A stretch of 64,000 bases of DNA from Rubrivirga sp. SAORIC476 (lineage in GTDB: Bacteria; Bacteroidota; Rhodothermia; Rhodothermales; Rubricoccaceae): assembly GCF_002283555.1 (NCBI RefSeq), contig NZ_MVOI01000006.1, positions 62,001 to 126,000 of the forward strand. Direction: 5' to 3'. Under the pieces are notes generated by a model. It was given only the letters and a program-made list of their open reading frames with translations, had not been told where the DNA came from and did no database searches. A program made the translations under genes and the position numbers. This document shows, piece by piece, positions 12,791-14,762 of this stretch. Numbering within the stretch: position 1 is the stretch's first letter; each line of letters opens with the position of its first letter.

Positions 12791-12828
12791 CCCCGCCCGC
12801 CTCGGTGACCGTGCCGAGGCGGGCGGGG
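12791..12828. repeat. REP-like palindrome, 15-bp perfect stem, after rtcB
   Basis: CCCCGCCCGCCTCGG pairs with CCGAGGCGGGCGGGG around TGACCGTG, 14 bases after the rtcB stop. It is the longest stem of the dispersed family. There is no T-run; it may still attenuate or protect the upstream message before rtcA. Confidence 0.65.
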
Positions 12829-14143: not shown

Positions 14144-14181
14144 CCGCCTCGGTGGCTCCCCCGACGGAGTCGCCGAGGCGG
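14144..14181. repeat. REP-like palindrome between rtcA and the RAYT gene
   Basis: CCGCCTCGG (14144-14152) and CCGAGGCGG (14173-14181) flank a 20-base loop that is itself partly self-complementary (CTCC...GGAG). It lies right after the rtcA stop and upstream of the transposase start, a typical place for the element of a REP-associated transposase. Confidence 0.6.
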
Positions 14182-14219: not shown

Positions 14220-14762
14220 ATGCGCCGCCATCGCCGCTCGGTTCGCCTGAGGGCCCACGACTACCGGGCTGGGCTCTACTTCGTCACGGTCTGCACGCAC
14301 GGCCGCCAGCGGCTCTTCGGGGACGTTGTGGATGGGGAGGTGGTGCTGTCGGTCGCGGGACGGATCGCGCGGGTTCGGACGGCGGAGGTGCGGCCGAGCG
14401 TGGTTCTGGATGCGTTCGTGGTGATGCCGGACCACGTGCACCTGTTGTTCGGGGTCGTGCCGGACGACACGCCCCGGGCCGATGACGGGTCATCGCGTAG
14501 GGGCGTATTGCAATACGCCCCTACCGACGGGGCACCGCGGTCTTTCCAGTCGCCTTCAGGATCGGTCGGTGCCGTCGTTCGCGGGTACAAGGGTGCTGTC
14601 ACGAATGCGATCAAGAGGCTCTGGCAGGCACCCGATGCGCGCGTCTGGCAGCGCAGCTTCCACGACCGCGTCGTCCGCACCGGCCGGGAGGCCGACGCCA
14701 TCCGCCGCTACATCGCCGACAACCCCGCCCGCTGGGACCCCGACGCCGGCCGCGCCGACTGA
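14220..14762 (+). CDS. REP-associated tyrosine transposase (RAYT, Y1_Tnp domain)
   Basis: The 180-residue product has the IS200-like Y1 domain: RAGLYFVTVCTHGRQRLFG near the start and the metal-binding MPDHVHLLFG (HUH motif). The C-terminal catalytic region includes WQRSFHDRVVR and IRRYIADNPARW, typical of RAYTs. These single-copy transposases act on REP palindromes rather than moving as an insertion sequence. About residues 93-102 (RGVLQYAPTD) are encoded by a perfect 28-base palindrome, so the gene carries a repeat insertion without a frameshift. ATG 14220 chosen because the upstream frame is the REP palindrome. Confidence 0.88.
   Translation: MRRHRRSVRLRAHDYRAGLYFVTVCTHGRQRLFGDVVDGEVVLSVAGRIARVRTAEVRPSVVLDAFVVMPDHVHLLFGVVPDDTPRADDGSSRRGVLQYAPTDGAPRSFQSPSGSVGAVVRGYKGAVTNAIKRLWQAPDARVWQRSFHDRVVRTGREADAIRRYIADNPARWDPDAGRAD
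14497..14524. repeat. Perfect 28-base palindrome inside the RAYT gene
   Basis: GTAGGGGCGTATTG is followed immediately by its exact reverse complement. Palindromes starting GTAGGGGCG are widespread interspersed repeats in several bacterial phyla. It lies in frame, with no stop created. Confidence 0.8.

Follow-up and report, generated by a model that had tools for sequence, protein, structure and literature searches.

The locus analysed here raises the question of why the gene for a REP-associated tyrosine transposase (RAYT, or TnpAREP) should carry a perfect palindrome of 28 bp within its own coding sequence. The window of our study, by which we mean the whole 64,000-nucleotide stretch of DNA, belongs to a genome of 4.48 Mb in 19 contigs, and the RAYT gene occupies positions 14220 to 14762 of its forward strand (start codon inferred at 14220, stop codon at 14760-14762), between an RNA 3'-phosphate cyclase gene and priA. 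It encodes a protein of about 180 amino acids with HUH and single-Tyr motifs. The palindrome, GTAGGGGCGTATTGCAATACGCCCCTAC (14497-14524), proved by direct comparison to be exactly its own reverse complement, and it has the double-foot form (GTAG...CTAC) of a GTAG REP. The sequence-only reading had reported such an element, in frame in the RAYT gene and encoding about nine residues between conserved blocks, and our analysis confirms it: ten codons are touched, they are read as RRGVLQYAPT with the RAYT frame remaining open, and this peptide is preceded by the HUH block MPDHVH and followed by the block VGAVVRGYKGAVT...VWQ. The element is the sole match to its sequence within the window, even when three mismatches are allowed, where shuffled sequences predict none, and the runner-up perfect palindrome measures 16 bp. 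The idea that we are looking at a chance palindrome or an intrinsic terminator was rejected and has a practically negligible probability, given that base composition alone predicts about 0.003 perfect palindromes of at least 28 bp per 64 kb and that a T-run is absent after the element; in addition, other species have palindromes at the equivalent position of the gene.

The assignment of the gene rests on several comparisons. Its product matches PF01797 (Y1_Tnp) above the cut-off (27.7 vs 23) and NF047646 (REP-associated tyrosine transposase) at 66 bits, which is below the cut-off of 80. The fold is that of an HUH transposase, the closest structures being IS608, ISDra2 and the TnpAREP of 4ER8, with Z values of 10.7-13. 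The last of these, the E. coli TnpAREP (subclass 2.2), is also the top PDB sequence match and resembles the window protein in fold over 123 aligned residues (VIA-align Z 11.7). The motifs MPDHVH, VWQ and YIADNP are all present, and the residues Y167, N171 and P172 of the Y---NP signature are invariant in a 17-row alignment. The window protein also has a three-residue deletion that includes a Trp common to many relatives. A plasmid home for the gene was considered and rejected, since a search of a plasmid collection with it returned no match.

Together, the VWQ motif, the variable linker and the in-frame REP between HUH and Y are traits of subclass 2.4, the counterpart, according to PMC6006769, of RAYT group 4 in Bertels et al. 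2017. In-frame REPs at the same place in subclass 2.4 TnpAREP genes were described by Quentin et al. 2018 (PMC6006769); the arrangement is therefore already known, published in 2018 for this transposase subclass, and the window case is a further example of it. What our study adds is quantitative: a broad sample, the use of reading frames, conservation at the DNA level including in a decayed gene, and the relation of palindrome type to RAYT lineage. As described there, subclass 2.4 shares with our locus the HUH and single Tyr, the WQ motif and the double-foot GTAG...CTAC REP, and it ranges over Bacteroidetes and various other phyla. Its consensus, NH[IFV]H for HUH and YIxNNP for the Y motif, differs from the DHVH and YIADNP of the window protein, and most of the relatives that we aligned have NHVH or NHIH. 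According to the sections of PMC8266576 available to us, the E. coli REP shares the GTAG foot with the window palindrome, whereas it has one foot and a bulged stem, and no internal REP is described there for the E. coli TnpAREP gene.

The palindrome lies in a linker that joins the HUH strand to helix C (14478-14555, forward strand; residues 90-115 counted from 14211) and is predicted to be disordered: no other long internal stretch has pLDDT below 50, and the palindrome encodes part of this one. The prediction agrees with the earlier suggestion that the element is tolerated in a surface loop. The same reading spoke of a palindrome "inserted" in the gene, and here our results are less favourable. 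A clean empty site was looked for among relatives and none was found; a neighbour, in G004, lacks a palindrome in a linker of similar length, and the median linker length is 66 residues with a palindrome vs 62 without, a difference of about 4 residues. Because no such site was found among the relatives and linkers of both kinds are similar in length, a discrete insertion event is something that can be inferred but not read from the gene.

With regard to the rest of the genome, pattern searches identified four double-foot elements of the form TAGGGGC...GCCCCTA. Beyond the palindrome within the RAYT gene, they comprise one further copy of the same type, intergenic and with one mismatch, and two elements of the sister type GTAGGGGCACACCGGCGGTGTGCCCCTAC. 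Genomes of the same genus contain 2 (G001), 14 (G002) and 6 (G003) such elements, many of them of the same two types. Dispersed copies, as expected of a REP element, are thus present at low number (4 here and 14 in the sister G002), and the view of the palindrome as a second REP family, represented at further sites of the genome and in the genus, is borne out. The possibility that the extra genomic copy is an ancestral shared insertion is unsupported, because in G002 and G003 the copies with one mismatch are found at different loci. In contrast with what PMC6006769 describes for subclass 2.4, copies in the genome are very few and the window locus has no flanking GTAG REP: instead of the REPtron arrangement, in which REPs flank tnpAREP, the only GTAG palindrome of its type near the gene is the internal one. 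Flanking copies do occur beside the RAYTs of relatives.

The palindrome is also distinct, as had been claimed, from the local repeat family. An inverted repeat of the form CGCCTCGG...CCGAGGCG, which belongs to an unrelated family, has a member just upstream of the RAYT gene (14145-14180) and occurs 8 times in the window (12798-12821, 14145-14180 and six other sites); genome-wide, 253 such pairs were counted, against 1 in the control. Membership of the palindrome in this family was rejected on sequence and copy number. Look-alikes of this repeat, CGCCAGCGG and CGCCAGAGG, are found near RAYTs in G002 and G004, and the three sequences are perhaps species versions of one family.

In order to place the palindrome in a wider context, we assembled 162 RAYTs from the same order, from a sample of the phylum and from 80 named contigs that span many phyla. 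In this collection, gathered with an alignment mostly of palindrome-carrying members, the HUH-to-WQ linkers of 106, 75 and 65 homologues contain inverted repeats whose arms reach at least 9, 12 and 14 bases, respectively, while codon-shuffled linkers give means of 1.9, 0 and 0; in equal-length stretches beside the linker, a control that takes in downstream DNA where flanking REPs may be located, the counts are 37, 14 and 11 of 324. The inner sequences between the feet vary, with GACCGGCCGGTC, ACGGCATGCCGT, TTTGATTAATCAAA and ATTCATCGCCGATGAAT among the examples. Perfect symmetry characterizes all 11 copies within RAYTs and 56 of 100 elsewhere (p = 0.003, with copies and sister pairs partly interdependent).

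About a third of the homologues lack a palindrome, and it is therefore dispensable for the gene. This absence also weighs against a regulatory hairpin, in which the folding of the mRNA or of single-stranded DNA would let the RAYT protein or the hairpin limit its own expression. The 28-mer does fold strongly as RNA (-20.5 kcal/mol, z -5.9; with flanks -45.9, z -3.8), but such folding is common to any perfect palindrome, and the parts of PMC8266576 available to us document TnpAREP on single-stranded DNA, with no RNA role found there. We regard this explanation as quite improbable.

The reading frame of the palindromes bears directly on whether the peptide or the DNA is constrained. Among the linker palindromes, GTAG lies in phase 0 in 44 cases and in phase 1 in 21, whereas the remaining phase, in which TAG would be a stop, is never used; the two frames give unrelated peptides (VGA... 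vs RGV/RGT...). Selection of the peptide RRGVLQYAPT, with the palindrome as an incidental consequence, could draw on the APT ending that recurs in the phase-1 group. However, the other allowed frame is twice as frequent and yields unrelated peptides (VGA...SPL and others), and very different palindrome sequences all keep perfect pairing. We reject coding constraint because the two frames give unrelated peptides, and its remaining probability is very small. The sequence-only reading had stated that finding the same palindrome at the equivalent site of distant RAYTs would argue for coding constraint rather than insertion; a palindrome does recur there, but its sequence and frame vary, which argues for a constraint on DNA and not on the peptide.

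Comparisons between close relatives lead in the same direction. In 15 reciprocal-best pairs, picked by protein core alone, palindromes are 92% identical vs 80% for the core DNA (Wilcoxon p = 0.001). The window RAYT and its G002 counterpart, each adjoining priA, agree at 28 of 28 positions in the palindrome and show 68-70% identity outside it, with the adjacent priA genes 84% identical; the G002 gene, with its identical palindrome, has a TGA codon and a Y-to-S change at the catalytic tyrosine. The use of both frames, the palindrome's higher conservation than that of the gene and its identity in the decayed G002 RAYT make the constraint look to be on the DNA. These comparisons of sequence suggest that the palindrome is preserved as DNA alongside the transposase and not for its encoded peptide. 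It would be held, or else renewed, as DNA: selection and repeated replacement by the same REP fit the data alike. As a separate observation on the genus, the RAYT appears to be decaying there: no match was obtained in G001, a short remnant is all that is present in G003 (L026), the G002 gene (L004) has lost its catalytic Tyr and gained a stop codon, and the window copy has the three-residue deletion mentioned above.

Palindrome type also follows the lineage of the enzyme. On the topology of a FastTree tree, used without branch support, type changes 38 times, vs a mean of 51.4 and a minimum of 47 for shuffled labels. Orthologues in G010 and G024 have types in common, and paralogues within one genome differ: G039 has three RAYTs with three different palindromes; two of these types recur at other places in the genome, where the third is represented by a close variant. 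A flanking palindrome is present at 21 genes, and in 12 of these it has the same core as the internal one, several of the others being variants of the internal core. In G029, 13 of 38 elements exactly match the type inside its best RAYT. In G050, the GTAGGGGC double-foot element occurs once in the genome, within the RAYT; G010 has three, two of them internal and one located upstream of a RAYT at a distance of about 100 bp. When 395 genomes were searched by DNA alone for an exact type, 18 copies were found in 9 genomes, 5 inside a RAYT and 5 within about 100 bp of one. Of the remaining 8 copies, 7 lie near contig ends. The window type, searched with one mismatch allowed, has a looser tie to the gene, with a minority of copies inside or beside a RAYT across 12 genomes.

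These results have to be weighed against a neutral passenger, that is, active REPs inserting repeatedly in a permissive linker where they are tolerated and the gene gains nothing. The predicted disorder of the linker, the use of both stop-free frames and the frequent gain and loss on the tree (39 changes, against a mean of 47 and a minimum of 40 in shuffles) are what it would lead one to expect; moreover, a foot-less palindrome also occupies a G004 linker, and REPs have been reported inside many unrelated genes (GTAG- and CGTC-tagged repeats, 2013, PMC3733652). Those intragenic GTAG REPs resemble ours in being read through in coding sequence, but they occupy unrelated host genes at mostly differing sites, whereas the window REP lies in a RAYT at a recurrent site. 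Against the passenger stand the tracking of RAYT lineage by palindrome type, the survival of the palindrome through gene decay with higher conservation than the gene, the sole G050 copy being inside the RAYT and all three G010 copies being inside or beside RAYTs. We consider it a real but lesser possibility.

The explanation that we favour is that the palindrome is a double-foot GTAG REP and, probably, the cognate REP of its host RAYT, a TnpAREP of subclass 2.4. The earlier proposal that it might be the enzyme's own substrate agrees with this, since genes are often flanked by palindromes of the type that they contain, and this type tracks RAYT lineage; the window gene itself has no flanking GTAG REP and only one near-identical genomic copy outside it, which limits the case for a cognate relation. 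TnpAREP recognises and cleaves single-stranded REP, with GTAG involved, as described in PMC8266576. In the window protein, the palindrome occupies the disordered stretch from the HUH strand to helix C, which would tolerate it because it is unstructured; palindromes there stay perfect, track RAYT lineage and persist as DNA in either frame. The enzyme would bind the single-stranded hairpin, perhaps cutting and copying it, and the gene would thus carry its own substrate and could seed REPs in a genome that it enters.

A stronger proposal, which we hold to be doubtful, is that RAYT genes of subclass 2.4 each carry their own recognition site in the form of the internal palindrome, which would be a heritable self-tag under selection. 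If this were true, horizontal transfer could not part gene and substrate, the internal copy would found the REP family of the new host, and genomes with copies only inside or beside a RAYT would represent an early stage. A RAYT-embedded REP that persists as DNA while genes diverge and, apparently, pass between phyla could explain the matching of RAYTs and REPs, and also how REP families start in new genomes. A possible transfer of this kind concerns two RAYTs, one from the window's order (L014) and one from a Nitrospira bin (L060), whose core proteins are 77% identical and whose palindromes are the same; this suggests either that gene and palindrome moved together between phyla or that a contig was misbinned.

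Other linkers show further variation. The G004 palindrome without a GTAG foot (CGCCAGAGGCCTCTGGCG; L028, 1734-1751) also occurs downstream of another RAYT of that genome (L005, 2190-2207). In three RAYT linkers (L015, L023 and L032) we identified tandem peptide repeats, HGGTPQS, VGTHAAA and VGARRRP, respectively, and those of L023 and L032 resemble repeated copies of a REP half.
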